This document shows, in pieces, positions 50,669 through 58,907 of a stretch of 64,000 nucleotides of DNA. The notes below the pieces were generated by a model, which searched no databases, was not told the origin of the DNA, and saw only the letters and a program-made list of their open reading frames with translations. This stretch comes from Sulfurifustis variabilis (lineage in GTDB: Bacteria > Pseudomonadota > Gammaproteobacteria > Acidiferrobacterales > Sulfurifustaceae), in assembly GCF_002355415.1 (NCBI RefSeq), contig NZ_AP014936.1:2108001-2172000 (forward strand), read 5' to 3'. How positions within the stretch are numbered: the stretch's first letter is position 1; each line of letters begins with the position of its first letter. Both the position numbers and the translations under genes were made by a program.

Positions 50669-50729
50669 TCGGCTCGAATCGCGCGTGAGGCACGTATATA
50701 TTAAGCGCCGCCACGAACCGCAGCCAGCG
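50669..50729. promoter_or_regulatory. Divergent promoter region mtnA/mtaD
   Basis: The 61-bp gap between the two ATGs holds TATATATT at 50695-50702, usable as a -10 in either direction, and TCGAAT (50674-50679) as a weak plus-strand -35 with 17-bp spacing. Coupled expression of isomerase and deaminase is plausible. No Shine-Dalgarno is visible before the mtaD ATG. Confidence 0.45.
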
Positions 50730-52043
50730 ATGACCGACGTCGACACCCTGATCCACGCACGATGGATTATCCCGATCGAGCCCGCCGGGCGGGTCCACCG
50801 GGACCACGCGCTGGCCGTGCGAGGTGGGCGCATCGTGGATCTGCTCCCGAGCCCCGAGGCCGAGCAGCGCTACCGCGCCTCGGACACCCTGCATTTCCCG
50901 CAGCATGCCCTGCTCCCGGGGTTCGTGAACGCCCACACGCACGCCGCAATGAGCCTGTTCCGCGGTCTTGCCGACGACATCCCGCTGATGACCTGGCTCA
51001 ACGAGCACGTGTGGCCCGCGGAGGCGAAGTGGGTCACCCCCGAATTCGTGCGCGAGGGCACCGAGCTCGCCGTGGCCGAGATGCTCGCGAGCGGTACCAC
51101 CTGCTTCAACGACATGTACTTTTTCGCCGAGGACACCGCGCGCGTCTGCCTCTCCGCCGGCATGCGCGCGGTGGTCGGCCTGATCGTGCTCGATTTTCCG
51201 ACGGCGTACGCGCAGACGGCCGACGAGTACCTGCACAAGGGGCTCGCCGTCCACGACGGGTTGCGGGCCGCCGAGCTGGTCACCACGGCGTTCGCGCCGC
51301 ATGCGCCGTACACCGTCTCCGACGCGCCGCTCCAGCGGCTTCGCACCGTCAACGACGAGCTGAACCTCCCGGTGCACATGCACGTGCACGAGACGGCGCA
51401 CGAGGTGGCGAACGCGGTCGAGGCCACCGGCAGGCGGCCGCTCGCGCGCCTCGCCGAGCTCGGGCTGATCGGTCCGAGCCTGGCCGCAGTGCACATGACA
51501 CAGCTCTCGGCCGGGGAGATCGGCATGCTTGCCGGGAGCGGCGCGAGCGTCGTCCACTGTCCGAGCTCGAACCTGAAGCTCGCGAGCGGCTTCTGTCCGG
51601 TGCACGCGCTGCTCACGGCCGGCGTCAACGTCGCGATCGGCACCGACGGCGCGGCGAGCAACAACGACCTCGACATGCTGGAAGAGCTGCGGCTCGCCGC
51701 CCTGCTCGCCAAAGGCGTCGCAGGCGAAGCGACCGCCGTCCCCGCGCACACTGCGCTGCGGATGGCGACGCTGAACGGGGCGAAGGCGCTCGGCCTGGAC
51801 GATCGCATCGGCTCGCTCGAGCGCGGAAAGCAGGCCGATCTCGTCGCCATCGACCTTTCCCACCTGCCGAGCGAGCCGGTCTACGATCCCGCCTCCCAGA
51901 TCGTCTATACGGCGAGCCGCGCTCAGGTCAGCGACGTGTGGGTCCATGGCCGGCGACTCCTCAAGAACCGTCAGCTCACCACGCTCGACGAGCGCGCCGC
52001 CCTGCAAAAGGCCCGCGCCTGGCGTGATAAGATAAAACCATAA
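50730..52043 (+). CDS. mtaD: 5-methylthioadenosine/S-adenosylhomocysteine deaminase
   Basis: This 437-aa amidohydrolase of the TRZ/ATZ group has metal ligands His69 and His71 in [10 protein letters not shown], a HMHVHET segment and [13 protein letters not shown] with the catalytic Asp. It would turn methylthioadenosine into methylthioinosine, the substrate of the phosphorylase at 2164. The position beside mtnA and upstream of ubiG matches Pseudomonas. ATG 50730 is chosen; upstream codons lack family similarity. Confidence 0.93.
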
Positions 52044-52133: not shown

Positions 52134-52139
52134 CTTTTG

Positions 52140-52844
52140 ATGCCTCATTCCACTCCCAACTTCGACGCCGCCGAGCTCGCCAAATTCGAGGCACTGGCCG
52201 CGCGCTGGTGGGACCCGCATGCGGAATTCCGGCCGCTGCACGAGATCAATCCGCTGCGGCTGCGCTTCATCGATCAGCGTGCGGGCCTCGCGGGCAAGCG
52301 GGTTGTCGACGTGGGCTGCGGCGGCGGGATTCTGTCGGAGGCGATGGCCGGGCTCGGCGCGCGCGTCACGGGCATCGACCTGGGCGAAGCGCCCCTCGCC
52401 GTGGCCCGGCTGCATCTCAAGGAGAGCGGACGCGAGGTCGAGTACCTCAAGATCAGCGCCGAGGACCTGGCCCGCGAGCGCCCCGAAGGCTACGACGTCG
52501 TCACCTGCATGGAGCTCCTCGAGCACGTGCCCGACCCCGCCTCCACGGTGGCCGCCTGCGCACGGCTCGTCAAACCGGGCGGTCACGTGTTCGTCTCGAC
52601 CATCAACCGCACGCCGAAGGCCTTCGTTTTCGCCATCGTCGGCGCCGAGTACGTGCTGAATCTGCTTCCGCGCGGCACGCACGAGTACCTCAAGTTCATC
52701 CGTCCCTCGGAGCTCGAGCGCTGGGCGCGCGCCGCAGGGCTGCACATGCGGGAGCTGGTCGGCATGCACTACAACCCGCTCACCCGGCACTACCGGCTCG
52801 GACCCGGCGTGGACGTGAACTACCTCGCCCACATGAACGCTTGA
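52140..52844 (+). CDS. ubiG: Ubiquinone biosynthesis O-methyltransferase
   Basis: This 234-aa SAM methyltransferase does both O-methylations in ubiquinone synthesis. [20 protein letters not shown] is the distinctive UbiG N terminus; [16 protein letters not shown] is SAM motif I, and LEHVPDP and [12 protein letters not shown] follow. ATG 52140 is preferred to TTG 52137. Palindromic repeats flank it on both sides. Confidence 0.96.
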
Positions 52845-52921: not shown

Positions 52922-53605
52922 ATGACATCGATCCGTACCGTACTGTTCGACCTGGACGGGACGCTCGCCGACACGGCGCCCGATCTCGCAGCGGCGCTCA
53001 ACAGGCTTCTCGCCGAAGCCGGCCGCGCGCCCCTTCCGTTCGAACGGATCCGACCGGTCGTGTCGCACGGCAGCCCGGCGCTGATACGGATCGGTTTCGC
53101 GCTCGCGCCGGGCGAGCCGGGCTATGCCGAGCGGCGCGCGCGCCTGCTCGAGATCTACGCCCAGGACCTCTGCCGCGAAACGCGGCTGTTCCCGGGCGTC
53201 CCCGATCTGCTGGCCGCGCTGCGCGCGCGAGGCATCGCCTGGGGCATCGTGACCAACAAGCCGGCATTCCTGACGGATCCGCTCGTGGAGCGCCTCGGGC
53301 TGCCGCACCCGCCCGTCTGCGTGGTGAGCGGCGACACCACGAACAACAAGAAACCGCATCCCGAACCGATGCTGCATGCCTGCCGGATCGCGGCGGCGAA
53401 ACCCGAGGACTGCCTGTACGTCGGCGATGCCGAGCGCGACGTGCGCGCCGGGCGAGACGCCGGCATGCGCACGCTGGTGGCGCTCTTCGGATACATCGGG
53501 GAGAATGAATCGCCGTCGCGGTGGGGCGCCGACGCGCTGATCCGCTCGCCCCTCGAGGTTCTCGACTGGATCGACGCGGCGGCCGGGAGGCGGCATGCCC
53601 GCTGA
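52922..53605 (+). CDS. mupP: HAD phosphatase, MupP/Gph type
   Basis: This 227-aa HAD hydrolase has FDLDGTLADTAPD (nucleophile Asp), GIVTNKP (motif II), a KPHPEP lysine and YVGDAERD (motif IV). It falls between phosphoglycolate phosphatase (Gph) and N-acetylmuramate-6-phosphate phosphatase (MupP). Position after ubiG is that of mupP in Pseudomonas, so peptidoglycan recycling is favoured over glycolate metabolism, by synteny only. Confidence 0.85.
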   Translation: MTSIRTVLFDLDGTLADTAPDLAAALNRLLAEAGRAPLPFERIRPVVSHGSPALIRIGFALAPGEPGYAERRARLLEIYAQDLCRETRLFPGVPDLLAALRARGIAWGIVTNKPAFLTDPLVERLGLPHPPVCVVSGDTTNNKKPHPEPMLHACRIAAAKPEDCLYVGDAERDVRAGRDAGMRTLVALFGYIGENESPSRWGADALIRSPLEVLDWIDAAAGRRHAR

Positions 53606-54815
53606 CGGCGGGACGATACTTATAATAGTGCTTGCGGCCGCTCTGGGCTTCGGTCTGGGGTGGCTGCTCGCCTCGAGCCGGCACCTGCGTCGCGTTACGG
53701 AGCTCACGACGAAGCTCGATCTGGAGCGTTTGGCCGCGGAAACGCGAGCCGCCGAGCTCGAGCAGCGCTTCGCCAACCTCTCGCACCAGGCGCTGCGCGA
53801 GAACAACGCCGCCTTCCTCCAGCTCGCCGAGCAGGCGCTCGCCAAGCTGCATCTGCAGGGCAGACACGACCTCGAGCAGAAGGAGAAGGCGGTCGAGGCG
53901 CTCGTCAAGCCCCTGCGCGAGTCGCTCGACAGGACGGCCGAGCAGATCCGCCTGATGGAGCAGGCGCGGCACGAGGCGTACGGCTCGCTCAGCAAGCACC
54001 TCGAGACCATGGCGCAGACGCAGCAGCTCCTGCAGAGCGAGACGCGCAATCTGGTGCAGGCGCTTCGCCGGCCCGAGGTGCGCGGGCAGTGGGGCGAGCT
54101 GACGCTCAAGCGTCTCGCCGAGCTCGCCGGCATGGTCGAGCACTGCGATTTCTACGAACAGACGACGCTCGACACGGAGGCCGGGCGCCTCCGTCCCGAC
54201 ATGATCGTGCGCCTGCCGGACGGCCGCGAGATCGTGGTCGACGTGAAAACGCCGCTCGACGCGTACCTCAACGCCGTCGAGGCGGCCGACGACGAAACGC
54301 GACGACGTCACCTGGAGCACCACGCGCGGAAGGTGCGCGAGCGCGTGAAGGAGCTCGCCGCGAAAAGCTACTGGAGCCAGTTCCGCCGCGCGCCCGATTT
54401 CGTCGTGCTGTTCATCCCGGGCGATCAGTTCCTCGCGGCCGCCCTCGACCACGACCGCACGCTGCTCGAAGACGCGCTGAGCAATCGCATCATCCTCACG
54501 ACGCCCACCAGCTTCGTCGCCCTGCTGCGCGCCGTCGCCTACGGCTGGCGGCAGGAGGCGCTCGCCGCCAACGCCGAGCGCATCCGCGAGGTGGGCGAGG
54601 AGCTGTACCGCCGGCTGGCCACCTTCGCCGAGCACCTGACCGGGGTCGGCAAGGGACTCGACCGGGCGGTCGAGAGCTACAACCGCGCGGTCGGTTCGTT
54701 CGAAACCAAGCTGGTTCCCGGGGCCCGGCGCTTCACGGAGCTCGGGGTCGGCGCGGTCAAGGACCTGGAGGAGCCGCTTCGGATCGAGAAGAAAGTGCGC
54801 GAGGTCGGGGAGTAG
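53595..54815 (+). CDS. rmuC: DNA recombination protein RmuC
   Basis: This 406-aa protein has an N-terminal membrane helix (about 7-24), a long coiled coil (about 30-155, charged with regular leucines) and the RmuC nuclease-like domain (RRPEVRGQWGELTLKRLAEL, RPDMIVRLPDGREIVVDVKT). The VDVKT motif recalls PD-(D/E)xK nucleases. It overlaps mupP by 11 bp. RmuC limits inversions in E. coli. Confidence 0.93.
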   Translation: MPADGGTILIIVLAAALGFGLGWLLASSRHLRRVTELTTKLDLERLAAETRAAELEQRFANLSHQALRENNAAFLQLAEQALAKLHLQGRHDLEQKEKAVEALVKPLRESLDRTAEQIRLMEQARHEAYGSLSKHLETMAQTQQLLQSETRNLVQALRRPEVRGQWGELTLKRLAELAGMVEHCDFYEQTTLDTEAGRLRPDMIVRLPDGREIVVDVKTPLDAYLNAVEAADDETRRRHLEHHARKVRERVKELAAKSYWSQFRRAPDFVVLFIPGDQFLAAALDHDRTLLEDALSNRIILTTPTSFVALLRAVAYGWRQEALAANAERIREVGEELYRRLATFAEHLTGVGKGLDRAVESYNRAVGSFETKLVPGARRFTELGVGAVKDLEEPLRIEKKVREVGE

Positions 54816-54867
54816 CCTCGGGATATGAGCCGGCGGCCACTCTTAGTATGATTTGCGCCGCGCCGCC

Positions 54868-55839
54868 ATGACCGACCGAGCCTCCCGCGAGAACGAGCGC
54901 CTGCCGTACGTCCTGCTCGTCGAAGACTCGCAGACGACCACCGCGCTGCTGTCGAAGTATCTCGCCGGCAGTTACCGCCTGCTGCACGCCAAGGACGGGG
55001 CGGACGCGTGGGACATGCTCGAGCGCAACCCGGACATCGAGCTGGTCATCACCGACATCAACATGCCGCGGCTGACCGGGCACCAGCTCCTCGTGAAGAT
55101 TCGCAAGAGCGACGAGCCGCGATTCCGGAACCTCCCCGTGATCGTCATGACGACCACGGACGACAACGTGGACCGGAACCTGGCGTTCCTGAACGGGGCG
55201 AACGACTTCATCACCAAGCCGATCGACGAGGCCGAGCTGCAGGCGCGCGTCAACGTGCACTACAAGCTCGCGCACACCATTCGCGAGCTCGAGGCGAGCC
55301 GCCGGCAGCTGGCCGAGCAGGCGACCACCGACCCGCTCACGCGGCTGAAGAACCGACGCGCCTTCTTCGAGAACGGCACCAAGCAGATGGCGATCGCGCG
55401 CCGCTACGGCACGGACCTGTCCATCCTCGTCGCCGATCTCGACCACTTCAAGCGCATCAACGACACCCACGGGCACCAGGCGGGCGACGAGGCGCTGGTG
55501 CACATCGCTCGAGTGCTGTCGCGCATGACGCGCACGGAGGATACGGTCGCCCGAATCGGCGGAGAGGAGTTCGCCATCCTGTTGCCCGACACCAACAGGC
55601 TGGGCGCCGCGGTGCTCGCGGAGCGCATTCGCACGGCGATCGAGCGGGACCATTTCGCGGTGGGCGAGCAGGCGCTCCCCCTGACGGTCAGCATCGGCGT
55701 CGCTTCGCACGCCGTGGAGCTCGTGGACACGATCGATCAGCTCCTGAACATCGCCGACCAGCGTCTCTATCTCGCCAAGAAGCACGGCCGCAACCGCATC
55801 TGCGTCAACAACGAGGGCAAGTCGACCTACGCCTCCTGA
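54868..55839 (+). CDS. Response regulator with GGDEF diguanylate cyclase domain
   Basis: This 323-aa protein has a receiver domain (about 14-130, phosphoacceptor Asp63 in VITDINMP, Lys117 in TKPID) and a GGDEF domain (150-315, active site GGEEF 231-235). The RxxD product-inhibition site (RTED, 222-225) is intact. It would make cyclic di-GMP when phosphorylated. No sensor kinase lies beside it. ATG 54868 is preferred over TTG 54853. Confidence 0.93.
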   Translation: MTDRASRENERLPYVLLVEDSQTTTALLSKYLAGSYRLLHAKDGADAWDMLERNPDIELVITDINMPRLTGHQLLVKIRKSDEPRFRNLPVIVMTTTDDNVDRNLAFLNGANDFITKPIDEAELQARVNVHYKLAHTIRELEASRRQLAEQATTDPLTRLKNRRAFFENGTKQMAIARRYGTDLSILVADLDHFKRINDTHGHQAGDEALVHIARVLSRMTRTEDTVARIGGEEFAILLPDTNRLGAAVLAERIRTAIERDHFAVGEQALPLTVSIGVASHAVELVDTIDQLLNIADQRLYLAKKHGRNRICVNNEGKSTYAS

Positions 55840-55878: not shown

Positions 55879-56757
55879 ATGGCGCATCCCCTCCTTCGCC
55901 ACGCCCTCCCGTCCGCGAAAAGTGCCGACGGACCGGTCGCCCAGGCACTCGCCTACAGCCGCGCGAAGCTCGCCGGCTCCGACTTCCACTACGCCGTGCT
56001 CGCGGCGCCCTCGCGCCTGCGACCGCCGCTCGCCGCGGTGTATGCGCTGTGGCGGGAGCTCGACGAGATCGCCGAGGAGTGCCGCGACCCGACGGTCGCC
56101 GTTCACAAGCTCGCCTGGTGGCGCGGAGAAATCGATGCGATCTTCGAAGGCCGGCCGCGCCACCCGGCCTCGGTCGCCGTTCACGCGCTTGCCCGGAAGG
56201 AAATCACCCGCGCGCCGCTGCAGCGACAGCTGGACGCACTGCACCGATCCTTGTCGTCGCCCGGCTTCGACGACATCGAGGCGCTCGAGATGCACGCGCG
56301 CGACACCGACGGGGCGCTCGTCGCGCTCGCGGCGCGGCTGCTCGCCGTTCCGGACGCGAGCCTCGCGGACCTCGGCGTCGGTCTGCGGCTCGCCCGCGTG
56401 ATCGCCGGGCTCGGTGCCGACGCGCGTTCCGGCCGCCTCGCGCTGCCGGGCGACGAGCTCGCACGCCGGGGCATCTCCCCGACCGACCTCCTGCGCCGGG
56501 GCGACGGCGAACCGCTGCGCGATCTCCTGGGCGCGCTGCACCGGCGAAGCCTTGCGTTCCTCGATCTGCCCGCGTCGCTGCCGTCGTCCGAACGTACCCG
56601 CCTCCGCCCCCTGTGCGTGCTCGCCGCGCTCGCCCGCGCCACCCTGGAGGAGATCGCCCGCGACGGTTACCGGGTGCTCGACCACGGTGTCGAGCTCACC
56701 CCGCTGCGCAAGCTCTGGCTGGCGTGGAAGGGATGCCGCGCGGGCGCGCGCGGGTGA
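55879..56757 (+). CDS. Squalene/phytoene synthase-family protein with degenerate aspartate motifs
   Basis: This 292-aa all-helical isoprenoid-synthase-like protein is related to HpnC/HpnD. The first Asp-rich motif reads LDEIAEECRD (61-70). The second region, normally N-x-x-R-D-x-x-E-D, reads RLARVIAGLGADARSGRLAL (170-189), so the first acidic residue of the pair is lost. It may be an altered enzyme or a non-catalytic relative like the NDUFAF6 group. It is coupled by GTGA to hpnE. Confidence 0.82.
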   Translation: MAHPLLRHALPSAKSADGPVAQALAYSRAKLAGSDFHYAVLAAPSRLRPPLAAVYALWRELDEIAEECRDPTVAVHKLAWWRGEIDAIFEGRPRHPASVAVHALARKEITRAPLQRQLDALHRSLSSPGFDDIEALEMHARDTDGALVALAARLLAVPDASLADLGVGLRLARVIAGLGADARSGRLALPGDELARRGISPTDLLRRGDGEPLRDLLGALHRRSLAFLDLPASLPSSERTRLRPLCVLAALARATLEEIARDGYRVLDHGVELTPLRKLWLAWKGCRAGARG

Positions 56758-58160
56758 GGCGGTTGAGCGCGAAGATGCCGAGCATGCCCGGCGCCGCGGT
56801 GGCGCAGCCGTCGCCGCGCGTCGTCATCGTGGGCGGGGGCTGGACCGGCCTCGCGACCGCGGTGGAGCTCGCGCGCCATGGAATCAAACCCGCGCTGCTC
56901 GAGGCCGGACGGCAACTCGGCGGGCGCGCCCGGGCGGTGCGCTTCGGGCCGTTCCACGTGGATAACGGCCAGCACATCCTGCTCGGTGCGTTTCGCTCGG
57001 TGCTGGACATTCTCGGCACGGTCGGGGTCGCCGAAGCCAGCGTCTTCCGTCGACAACCCCTGCGGCTCGTGATGGTCGAGCCGGACGGCCGACGATTCGA
57101 GATCGGAACCGCGCGGCTCCCGGCGCCCCTGCACCTCGCGGCAGGCCTGCTGCGGGCACGCAGCCTCGGCATGGCCGCGCGCCTGAAGGCGCTGGCGCTG
57201 CTGCGCGCGATGCGACGCCAGGGCTTCACCGTCGACCCGGACTGCTCCGTCGCCGACTATCTCGCGAGCCATCGCCAACCGCCCGAAGCGCTCCGGACGG
57301 TATGGCGACCGCTCTGTCTCGCCGCCCTCAACACGGCACCGGAAGAGGCATCGACACGGGTCTTCCTGCGCGTGGTGCGCGACGCCTTCTTCGTCCGGCG
57401 CCGGCACTCCGACCTCCTGCTCCCGACCCTCGACCTCTCGGCATGCCTGCCGCGTCCGGCGACCGACTACATCGAGAGCCGCGGCGGCACGGTGCGGCTC
57501 GGCGCCCGTGTCAGCGCGCTGCAGCTCGGCGACGGTGCCGTGGCGGGCGTGTACCTCGGCGAGGAGCGGGTCGCCGCCGACCACGTCGTGATCGCCACGC
57601 CGCCCGAGACCTGCGCCGCGCTGCTGCGGGACCACGCTCGGGTGGCGCACATCGCCGAGGCCTATCGGCATCTCGTGCCCCAGCCCGTCTGCACGGTGTT
57701 TTTGCGCTACCCTCAGCCCGTGGCGCTCGACCGCGACATGGTCGGCCTCCTGGACGGCACGGCGCACTGGCTGTTCGACCGCGGGCGCCTGACCGGCGAC
57801 CGCGGTCTCATCGCCGCGGTCATCAACGGGCGCGGGCCACACCTGCGCCTCGCGAACGAGGCCCTGATCGACCGCGTCGTCCGGGACATCGCCGTCCGCT
57901 TTCCGCGCTGGCCGGCTCCGATCGAGACCAAGCTGATCCGCGAGCGCAGCGCGACGATCGTCGCGCGACCGGGGATAGACCGTTATCGCCCGGCGCACGC
58001 CACCGGGGTGCGGGGGCTCTGGATCGCCGGCGACTACACCGCCACGGGTTACCCGAGCTCGCTCGAAGGCGCCGTGCGCAGCGGCGTACTGTGCGCCCGG
58101 TGGATACTGCGGCATGCCTACGCCGCATCCGAAACACACCTGCACGAGGAGAGAGACTGA
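56754..58160 (+). CDS. hpnE: HpnE-like FAD-dependent desaturase/oxidoreductase
   Basis: This 468-aa flavoprotein has VVIVGGGWTGLATAVELARHG (FAD site, about 23-43), GGRARAVRFGPFHVDNGQH and a C-terminal IAGDYTATGYPSSLEGAVRS. HpnE relatives act with HpnC/HpnD in squalene formation. The GTG start at 56754 overlaps the preceding TGA; an ATG at 56775 is an alternative. No squalene-hopene cyclase is in the window, so the end product is unknown. Confidence 0.88.
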   Translation: MRRLSAKMPSMPGAAVAQPSPRVVIVGGGWTGLATAVELARHGIKPALLEAGRQLGGRARAVRFGPFHVDNGQHILLGAFRSVLDILGTVGVAEASVFRRQPLRLVMVEPDGRRFEIGTARLPAPLHLAAGLLRARSLGMAARLKALALLRAMRRQGFTVDPDCSVADYLASHRQPPEALRTVWRPLCLAALNTAPEEASTRVFLRVVRDAFFVRRRHSDLLLPTLDLSACLPRPATDYIESRGGTVRLGARVSALQLGDGAVAGVYLGEERVAADHVVIATPPETCAALLRDHARVAHIAEAYRHLVPQPVCTVFLRYPQPVALDRDMVGLLDGTAHWLFDRGRLTGDRGLIAAVINGRGPHLRLANEALIDRVVRDIAVRFPRWPAPIETKLIRERSATIVARPGIDRYRPAHATGVRGLWIAGDYTATGYPSSLEGAVRSGVLCARWILRHAYAASETHLHEERD

Positions 58161-58907
58161 ATGCCCTACACACCTGCACCCGACTCGCTCGCAGGTCGCG
58201 TCCTCCTGGTCAGCGGCGCCAGCGGTGGTCTGGGCCGCGCCGCCTCTCTCGCCCTGGCGGAACACGGGGCGACCGTGGTCCTGCTCGGGCGGACGCTCAA
58301 GAAGCTCGAGCGCGTCTACGACGAGATCGAGGCGCACGGCGGACCCAAGCCGGCGATGCTCGTGGCGGACCTGGCATCGGCCGGGCCGACCGAGTACCAG
58401 ACCGTGGCGCAGACCATTGCGCAGGAGTTCGGCAGACTGGACGGCCTGCTCCACAGCGCCGCGGAACTCGGCACGCTCACGCCGCTCGAGCTCTACGACC
58501 TTCAGACCTGGCAGCGCGTGCTCGCCGTCAACCTGACCGCGCCGTTTCTGCTGACGCGCGCATGCCTCCCGCTGCTCAAGCGCTCCGATGACGCGTCCGT
58601 CGTGTTCACCTCGGCCGACGTCGGCCGCAGGGCGCGCGCGTACTGGGGCGCGTATGCCGTCGCCGCCTTCGGCCTCGAAGGCATGGCGCAGATCCTCGCG
58701 GACGAGCTCGCCGAGAACACGCGAATCCGCGTGAACACGCTCGACCCCGGCCCCGTGCGCACCGACCTTCGCGCCGCCGCCTACCCCGGCGAGAGCCCGC
58801 TCGCGACGCCCGCTCCGGAAGCCGTCATGGCGACGTACCTGTACCTGCTCGGGCCGGACAGCCGCGGGGTGACCGGCCAGGCCCTCACGGCCGAGCGCGC
58901 AATGTGA
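58161..58907 (+). CDS. yciK: YciK-like short-chain dehydrogenase lacking catalytic lysine
   Basis: This 248-aa classical SDR resembles E. coli YciK, with VSGASGGLGRAASLALAEHG and HSAAELGTLTPLE. The active-site Ser (151) and Tyr (165) remain, but the usual Y-x-x-x-K reads YAVAA, with Ala at 169. Catalysis by the standard mechanism is therefore doubtful. It abuts hpnE with no gap and ends before a GC hairpin. A Pseudomonas homologue follows mupP directly. Confidence 0.88.
   Translation: MPYTPAPDSLAGRVLLVSGASGGLGRAASLALAEHGATVVLLGRTLKKLERVYDEIEAHGGPKPAMLVADLASAGPTEYQTVAQTIAQEFGRLDGLLHSAAELGTLTPLELYDLQTWQRVLAVNLTAPFLLTRACLPLLKRSDDASVVFTSADVGRRARAYWGAYAVAAFGLEGMAQILADELAENTRIRVNTLDPGPVRTDLRAAAYPGESPLATPAPEAVMATYLYLLGPDSRGVTGQALTAERAM

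Follow-up and report, generated by a model that had tools for sequence, protein, structure and literature searches.

A functional precedent for the protein considered here is best sought in NDU1 and NDUFAF6. As PMC8007014 presents them in the passages that deal with these proteins, both DxxxD motifs are missing from NDU1, NDUFAF6 and their orthologues, four of which, from bacteria, serve as an outgroup; NDU1 is folded like a dehydrosqualene synthase and is predicted to be membrane-embedded via carboxyl-end residues. The same passages describe NDUFAF6 as a complex I assembly factor for which a chaperone-like membrane role has been considered. Human NDUFAF6 has been linked to Leigh syndrome. A further squalene synthase (SQS) homolog, YisP of Bacillus subtilis, is characterized as a farnesyl diphosphate (FPP) phosphatase in the relevant part of PMC10148934. 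Here we analyze two overlapping genes in a 64,000-nucleotide stretch of the Sulfurifustis variabilis genome (contig NZ_AP014936.1, positions 2,108,001 to 2,172,000 of the forward strand; hereafter the window). Strain skN76 of this species is described as an autotrophic sulfur oxidizer in the portion of PMC5024460 that concerns it. The first gene encodes P0001, a degenerate relative of HpnD (presqualene diphosphate synthase), and the second encodes P0002, a member of the HpnE (hydroxysqualene dehydroxylase) family.

Comparison of P0001 with intact HpnDs suggests, with a probability of about 0.6, that it is a pseudoenzyme of the HpnD lineage, non-catalytic and maintained by selection. This proposal rests on the retention of the fold and of non-catalytic residues, the destruction of the second Mg-diphosphate site, the absence of HpnC, and the presence of hpnCDE at the same genomic place in two genomes of the same family (G001 and G010).

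P0001 (292 aa) is encoded at positions 55879-56757 and P0002 (468 aa) at 56754-58160; these and all features below lie on the + strand. P0001 matches PF00494 with 137.3 bits (gathering cut-off 26, E 1e-39), which places it in the SQS_PSY family. Its best NCBIfam match is HpnD (TIGR03465), and the score of 170.5 bits lies below the curated cut-off of 278.6. P0002 scores 419.6 bits against TIGR03467, above the curated cut-off of 283.05, and is thus an HpnE; of 45 near-invariant columns, 42 are unchanged and three carry mild replacements (I>V, S>N, T>S), a degree of conservation within the 89-100% obtained when each of 36 other HpnEs is left out in turn. The two reading frames share four bases, GTGA (56754-56757), comprising the stop of P0001 and a possible start of P0002. 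The conserved HpnE core begins at about residue 22, so GTG is a possible start and one further downstream is possible too. The first-pass annotation of this DNA had described a GTGA-coupled HpnD/HpnE-like pair with an intact-looking flavoprotein, and both genes, their overlap and the intact look of the flavoprotein were confirmed.

Alignment of P0001 with 24 intact HpnDs revealed unequal damage to the two acidic motifs. The first, at residues 59-67 (56053-56079), reads RELDEIAEE where the active form is REVDDVVDE, and is changed conservatively: R59 and D62 are kept, and D63 and D66 are replaced by Glu. The second, at residues 170-182 (56386-56424), reads RLARVIAGLGADA in place of QLTNIxRDxxEDA, with the changes N173>R, D177>G and E180>A; only D181 of its acidic ligands is kept. 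The conserved Tyr of HpnD, Y139, is His in P0001. HpnD is defined by two Asp-rich motifs, of which the second has the form N-xxx-D-xxx-D, and P0001 has R173, G177 and D181 at these positions. The second Mg-diphosphate site is therefore lost, whereas the first persists in conservative form. The degraded motif of the first-pass annotation is accordingly found in the second motif. That annotation had named, as one outcome that would refute it, an alignment locating the acidic residues at another functional position, and this is half borne out: motif 1, the survival of which had gone unmentioned, keeps D62, E63 and E66, so one diphosphate-Mg site may survive.

Outside the active site, P0001 keeps a conserved non-catalytic block at residues 78-101 (L78, W80-W81, E84, H95-P96; 56110-56181) and a conserved C-terminal LTPLRKLWLAWK at residues 273-284 (56695-56730), within a predicted helix spanning residues 275-288. 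An AlphaFold2 model built from a 47-sequence alignment had a mean pLDDT (predicted local distance difference test) of 90.4 and a pTM (predicted template modeling score) of 0.88. Its best structural match was 5iys (Z 30.2, root-mean-square deviation 2.5, 272 residues). The top fold matches were squalene and dehydrosqualene synthases and CrtM-like proteins, with Z of about 28-30, followed by HpnC (25.4) and YisP (3we9, 24.4); no NDUFAF6 structure was among the matches listed in the PDB sequence and fold searches. In prediction, P0001 is thus a well-folded protein with a broken active site. A frameshift or sequencing error was rejected as the origin of P0001, given its uninterrupted frame and the high confidence of the fold prediction.

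The source genome is complete (3,958,814 bases), and P0001 is its sole SQS_PSY protein (PF00494 search, E 0.001). The same search found no HpnC adjoining the pair or anywhere in the genome. No hopene cyclase adjoins the pair, and the genome has no TIGR01507 match at E 1e-30. PF13243 gave only two brief matches, of 25.5 and 19.7 bits (flagged above the cut-off together with their neighbors), in one frame of 2603 aa, which we take to be another kind of protein and not a hopene cyclase. The earlier observation that neither a hopanoid cyclase nor HpnC lies next to the pair is therefore true, and in these searches extends to the whole genome. A second HpnE-like flavoprotein is encoded elsewhere in this genome (G000:C1:2710256-2711578; L149:9745-11178) and scores 296 bits, above the HpnE cut-off. 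It was set aside as a pathway member, as it keeps 29 of the 45 HpnE columns and no hpn-like neighbors were seen among the surrounding open reading frames.

Comparison of the locus within the taxonomic order of the window shows the gene order mtaD-ubiG-gph-rmuC-GGDEF regulator-[SQS genes]-yciK-rsd-ffh-ccsA, within the limits of each locus; these gene names are our own presumptive assignments, made from sequence and not taken from a database. The SQS slot is filled by hpnC-hpnD-hpnE, all with full motifs, in G001 and G010 (75% and 78% complete), by P0001 and HpnE in the window, and by a degenerate HpnD with no HpnE match in G007 and G008. In G012, also of the family of the window, an HpnE-like remnant of 51 bits (L043:6748-7062) lies between the degenerate HpnD and yciK, and a search of the genome of a further family member, G004, yielded no SQS_PSY protein. 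Within this series, the window resembles an intermediate stage.

A second case is provided by genus g173, where G202 has the order mtaD-ubiG-gph-rmuC-hpnC-hpnD-hpnE-yciK-GGDEF, and G313 and G408 have pseudo-HpnD-yciK-GGDEF on contigs that stop upstream. The pseudo-HpnD of G313 shares 52.6% identity with the HpnD of G202, compared with 34-41% for eight other HpnDs. Identity of the degenerate G206 protein, from genus g177, amounts to 53.6% with the intact HpnD of G411 and 40-48% with four other intact HpnDs. In the trees, HpnD and the degenerate rows split from HpnC at 100/100, and three degenerate proteins of family f7, in the order of the window, group with the G001 and G010 HpnDs (support 99/95). 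The split from HpnC, together with the shared locus with hpnCDE of G001 and G010, indicates that P0001 descends from HpnD. A single clade for 18 degenerate rows was weakly rejected (approximately unbiased test, p-AU 0.038); at the 0.05 level, single clades for the six rows of the family of the window (p-AU 0.060) and for twelve rows of its order (0.080) were not rejected. As judged from these sequences and trees, the HpnD catalytic set was lost more than once, in two cases within a genus and at least once in place. The position of P0001 itself, in a clade of 38 or of 5, is not trusted. The G313 pseudo-HpnD falls near P0001 despite its 52.6% identity to the HpnD of its congener G202, which probably reflects long-branch attraction.

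To place P0001 among its relatives, we used a class sample of 369 genomes (Gammaproteobacteria in the GTDB sense). A profile of the degenerate proteins matched 214 of these, HpnC, HpnD and CrtB kinds included. The pseudo-HpnD loci examined are a subset of the matches that were weak or single in their genome, from this search and from relatives of the window, and the counts are therefore a lower bound. Besides the window, at least 60 genomes in 42 families hold an HpnD-like protein without the full catalytic set, and in none of these proteins are the Mg positions (62, 66, 177 and 181) all occupied by acidic residues. For this count, sequences with four Asp and the Asn were classed as intact (85, HpnC kinds among them), leaving 80 outside. 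From the latter, 19 sequences of partial HpnC or CrtB kind, with alignment solely beyond motif 1, and a 74-aa fragment (L176) were set aside. The remaining 60 loci represent 59 genomes (L122 and L164 belong to the same one), and addition of L183 (G229) gives 60; two loci, L050 and L051, have no letters at some motif columns and score just 48 and 58 bits. At least one of mtaD, ubiG, gph, rmuC and yciK lies near 51 of the 60 loci, some of which are short contig ends. The view of the pair as an isolated oddity was rejected, as the class search and the syntenic loci yielded many such proteins. Literature searches limited to open-licence PMC papers brought up none on bacterial degenerate HpnD.

Conservation was examined in a set of 47 degenerate rows (A2), consisting of P0001 and 46 of the 50 listed proteins, with L047, L048, L049 and L106 left out. 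W80, W81 and H95 are fixed in all 47 rows, P96 in 46, and E84, L78, A74 and P190 in 44; L101, G166 and W280 are kept in 43, L273 in 40 and W283 in 38. Catalytic positions are kept far less often: N173 in one row, E180 in 2, D62 in 5, D66 in 11, D177 in 19 and D181 in 24. The fixed block and the C-terminal LTPLRKLWIAW are common to intact HpnD and, by eye, absent from most HpnC rows. Very degenerate SQS proteins were also seen in family f4 (L047 and L048), between a ferredoxin-like gene and what we take to be rsd-ffh-ccsA, at the opposite end of this gene neighborhood; the names of these surrounding genes are likewise presumptive.

Nine pairs of degenerate genes were compared by the NG86 method. 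The ratios of nonsynonymous to synonymous substitution rates (dN/dS) were 0.12, 0.17, 0.18, 0.21, 0.23, 0.23, 0.34 and 0.47, with the ninth pair saturated, and those of neighboring genes were 0.11-0.40. Pseudo-HpnD genes are thus under purifying selection in eight of the nine pairs measured, P0001 not being among them. The sole pair from the family of the window, G008/G012 (40% identical, synonymous divergence dS 1.75), gave 0.34 compared with 0.11-0.17 for its neighbors, and is constrained but evolving faster than they are. The two genes of the window differ in divergence. The HpnDs of G001 and G010 are 70-71% identical to each other and P0001 is 34-38% identical to either, whereas the corresponding values for HpnE are 63-66% between G001 and G010 and 58-60% for P0002. 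In relative-rate tests of HpnE, 12 of 12 leaned to a faster P0002, three at p<0.05 (0.0004, 0.010 and 0.039) and nine not significantly. P0002 is close to clock-like in the comparison in which P0001 is not.

HpnE is present in 79 of the 369 class genomes (77 above the cut-off); of the 52 class-sample genomes with a degenerate HpnD, only two contain it, that of the window and G324. G324, from another family (90% complete, 580 contigs), has the order gph-rmuC-pseudo-HpnD-HpnE-yciK without HpnC (L151:1004-3236). The Mg positions of its pseudo-HpnD are all non-acidic (K62, F66, H177, T181), no other SQS match was found in this genome, and its HpnE keeps 39 of the 45 near-invariant columns. These two cases indicate that HpnE can outlive HpnC and a full-site HpnD, in two families. 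The HpnE gene beside P0001 is probably a retained ancestral operon gene.

Hopene cyclase matches (TIGR01507, E 1e-30) are absent from 78 of the 79 genomes with HpnE, G411 being the exception, while such a match occurs in 16 of the 52 degenerate-HpnD genomes. In five of these 16 (G067, G174, G203, G206 and G339), and in G411, another SQS homolog adjoins the cyclase. In this class, HpnE and hopene cyclase thus all but exclude each other. This fits a possible loss of catalysis by HpnD where another synthase supplies squalene, and means that the lack of a cyclase beside the pair of the window is not in itself unusual. In this class hpnCDE may serve squalene or hydroxysqualene without hopanoids, and would then not be a hopanoid operon.

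The persistence of a degenerate HpnD could be accounted for if HpnD in these bacteria had a second job needing no catalysis. After the loss of squalene synthesis, or its takeover by a different synthase, selection would act on this second job alone. Decay without gene loss across 42 families suggests such a catalysis-free job for the enzyme family. By analogy, pseudo-HpnD may resemble mitochondrial NDUFAF6 in being a membrane-attached helper that assembles respiratory complex I or another membrane complex, with the C-terminal LTPLRKLWIAW as a candidate membrane or partner contact. That complex I assembly is the specific role of P0001 is possible, and we regard it as doubtful. More broadly, we tentatively suggest that HpnD of Gammaproteobacteria performs two jobs, catalysis and an older or equally important role of the NDUFAF6 kind via W80-W81, E84, H95-P96 and LTPLRKLWIAW, and that this would explain why the site has been lost repeatedly while the gene persists at the ubiG-gph-yciK locus. 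We hold this to be somewhat improbable at present, the more so as good support for conversion in place comes from a single genus and not from two. The first-pass annotation had left the choice between a new reaction and a non-enzymatic partner. The non-enzymatic side is favored by the 60 genomes in 42 families, the incomplete site and the fixed fold positions; the word partner does not hold generally, given the two HpnE-bearing genomes among 52.

The complex I part of this proposal was assessed by co-occurrence, using genome lists copied by hand. NuoD is present in 201 of the 214 genomes with a profile match (HpnC and CrtB kinds included; the 13 others were counted by hand), compared with 112 of 155 without. 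Among degenerate-HpnD genomes NuoD was found in 49 of 52, and a squalene-hopene cyclase (SHC) control gave 51 of 53. The three exceptions are G061 (62% complete), G298 (84%) and G229 (90%), and in the family of the window G004 has NuoD and no SQS_PSY protein; G229 and G004 count against the complex I role. Contrasts within families, made by hand, are divided, two favoring the link (f23, f61) and two opposing it (f35, and f137 with a genome 84% complete). Co-occurrence was rejected as proof of a complex I function, as the control shows a like excess and the within-family contrasts are split. Complex I remains a lead by analogy, and not a result.

Several observations weigh against P0001 being a selected pseudoenzyme. 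It keeps R59, D62, E63, E66 and D181, so that three of four Mg positions are acidic, more than in most pseudo-HpnDs, and the retention of D177 (19/47) and D181 (24/47) means that some pseudo-HpnDs may retain part of the site. The fixed residues may be structural only. P0001 is strongly accelerated, with 90-103 unique changes compared with 5-22 in the G001 and G010 HpnDs in eight relative-rate tests; the sample contains no close relative of it, and the selection figures come from other pseudo-HpnD genes. The degenerate gene of G206 is preceded by gph and ubiG, while in the 15 kb covered the intact gene of G411 shows no ubiG, gph or yciK; conversion in place is therefore best borne out in g173 only. 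Finally, the intact HpnE of the window is unexplained by a pseudoenzyme.

Part of this evidence would suit an enzyme with a changed reaction, in which motif 1 holds one Mg-diphosphate and FPP undergoes hydrolysis or elimination to a YisP-like farnesol, or to another alcohol or hydrocarbon for HpnE to oxidize or reduce. The residues kept in P0001 (R59, D62, E63, E66 and D181), the canonical HpnE (42/45 columns, within the 89-100% range) encoded by an overlapping gene, and the structural match to the FPP phosphatase YisP (Z 24.4; PMC10148934, in the part cited above) all agree with this, as does the occurrence of a second pseudo-HpnD with HpnE and no other SQS match in G324. That same genome, however, keeps its HpnE (39/45) beside zero acidic Mg positions, and HpnE retention therefore needs no such site; moreover, two of the three motif 2 ligands, N173 and D177, are gone from P0001. 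We consider a changed reaction unlikely. Less probable again is that the pair is a relic without present function, in which squalene synthesis was lost, HpnC has disappeared, HpnD is in decay and HpnE would follow. The missing HpnC, the fast HpnD, the leaning of all 12 HpnE rate tests with three at p<0.05, the 51-bit scrap behind the G012 pseudo-HpnD and the lack of an SQS_PSY protein in G004 are as expected of a relic. Yet a 292-codon open frame keeps W80, W81, H95, P96 and the C-terminal motif despite an identity of only 38% to the G001 and G010 HpnDs, other pseudo-HpnD genes are under purifying selection, nine of the 12 rate tests are not significant, and 42 of 45 HpnE columns are kept. It is very improbable that the pair still makes squalene or hydroxysqualene with P0001 as an active, unusual HpnD: HpnE is canonical and P0001 is predicted to fold like squalene synthases, but there is no HpnC for the second step, the second motif is destroyed, the HpnD cut-off is missed, and no hopene cyclase was found to use the squalene.

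If P0001 and its relatives are indeed pseudoenzymes of the HpnD lineage, dozens of bacterial genes of the SQS/phytoene synthase family would not encode synthases, and predictions of squalene or hopanoids from hpnD alone would be wrong in these genomes. Bacteria would offer a simple system for the study of NDUFAF6-type SQS pseudoenzymes, and the repeated conversion of an enzyme to a kept pseudoenzyme would be a natural experiment on the second function of HpnD. Pseudoenzymes of the NDUFAF6 sort with the SQS fold are already known; the interpretation sharpened here, from sequence comparison, is of a pseudo-HpnD that evolved repeatedly and is selected in the pairs where selection was measurable.

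The genes flanking the pair, with presumptive names as above, encode an MtaD-type deaminase (50685-52043), a UbiG-type methyltransferase (52137-52844), a Gph-type phosphatase of uncertain start (52952-53605) and an RmuC-type protein (53595-54815), all with homologs in related loci. Directly 5' of the pair lies a response regulator with a GGDEF domain (54853-55839), which is found upstream of the SQS genes in loci of the same order, of both the intact hpnCDE and the pseudo-HpnD kinds. A YciK-type short-chain dehydrogenase (58161-58907) lies directly 3' of the pair, as in many related loci.

Separate degenerate SQS proteins with an RLQWWR-like block were observed in another class of the phylum (L129-L132, L135-L137, L140, L143, L144 and L146). 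We take this class to be Alphaproteobacteria and its proteins to be NDUFAF6-like or orthologues, presumably. At least two of these genomes (G433 and G458) have the degenerate protein and a separate true HpnD, while the genome of the window has only P0001. The ten proteins used in a tree keep the tryptophan/arginine block at the same place; they fell inside the degenerate group of Gammaproteobacteria in one tree, but two alternatives, with p-AU of 0.446 and 0.444, were not rejected.

Among known systems, P0001 resembles NDUFAF6 in having an SQS fold; of the two DxxxD motifs that NDUFAF6 lacks, P0001 has lost the second and keeps the first conservatively, and several other degenerate homologs have lost both. 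Assembly is a candidate function for proteins of its kind, and the alignments used for this comparison are of bacterial proteins. YisP shares the SQS-like fold (Z 24.4 to the P0001 model), and differs in not being matched by P0001 in a phmmer search at E 0.01, though it is matched by the profile. P0002 resembles HpnE in score and in its 42 of 45 columns, and differs in its setting, where the usual suppliers, HpnC and full-site HpnD, are missing. Compared with HpnD, P0001 lacks the second Asp motif, Y139 and N173, scores below the cut-off and has no HpnC in its genome. HpnD is nevertheless its best family match: P0001 is nested among HpnDs in the trees, its gene sits at the operon position that hpnD occupies in G001 and G010, and it has the W80-W81/H95-P96 and C-terminal LTPLRKLWIAW blocks in common with it.

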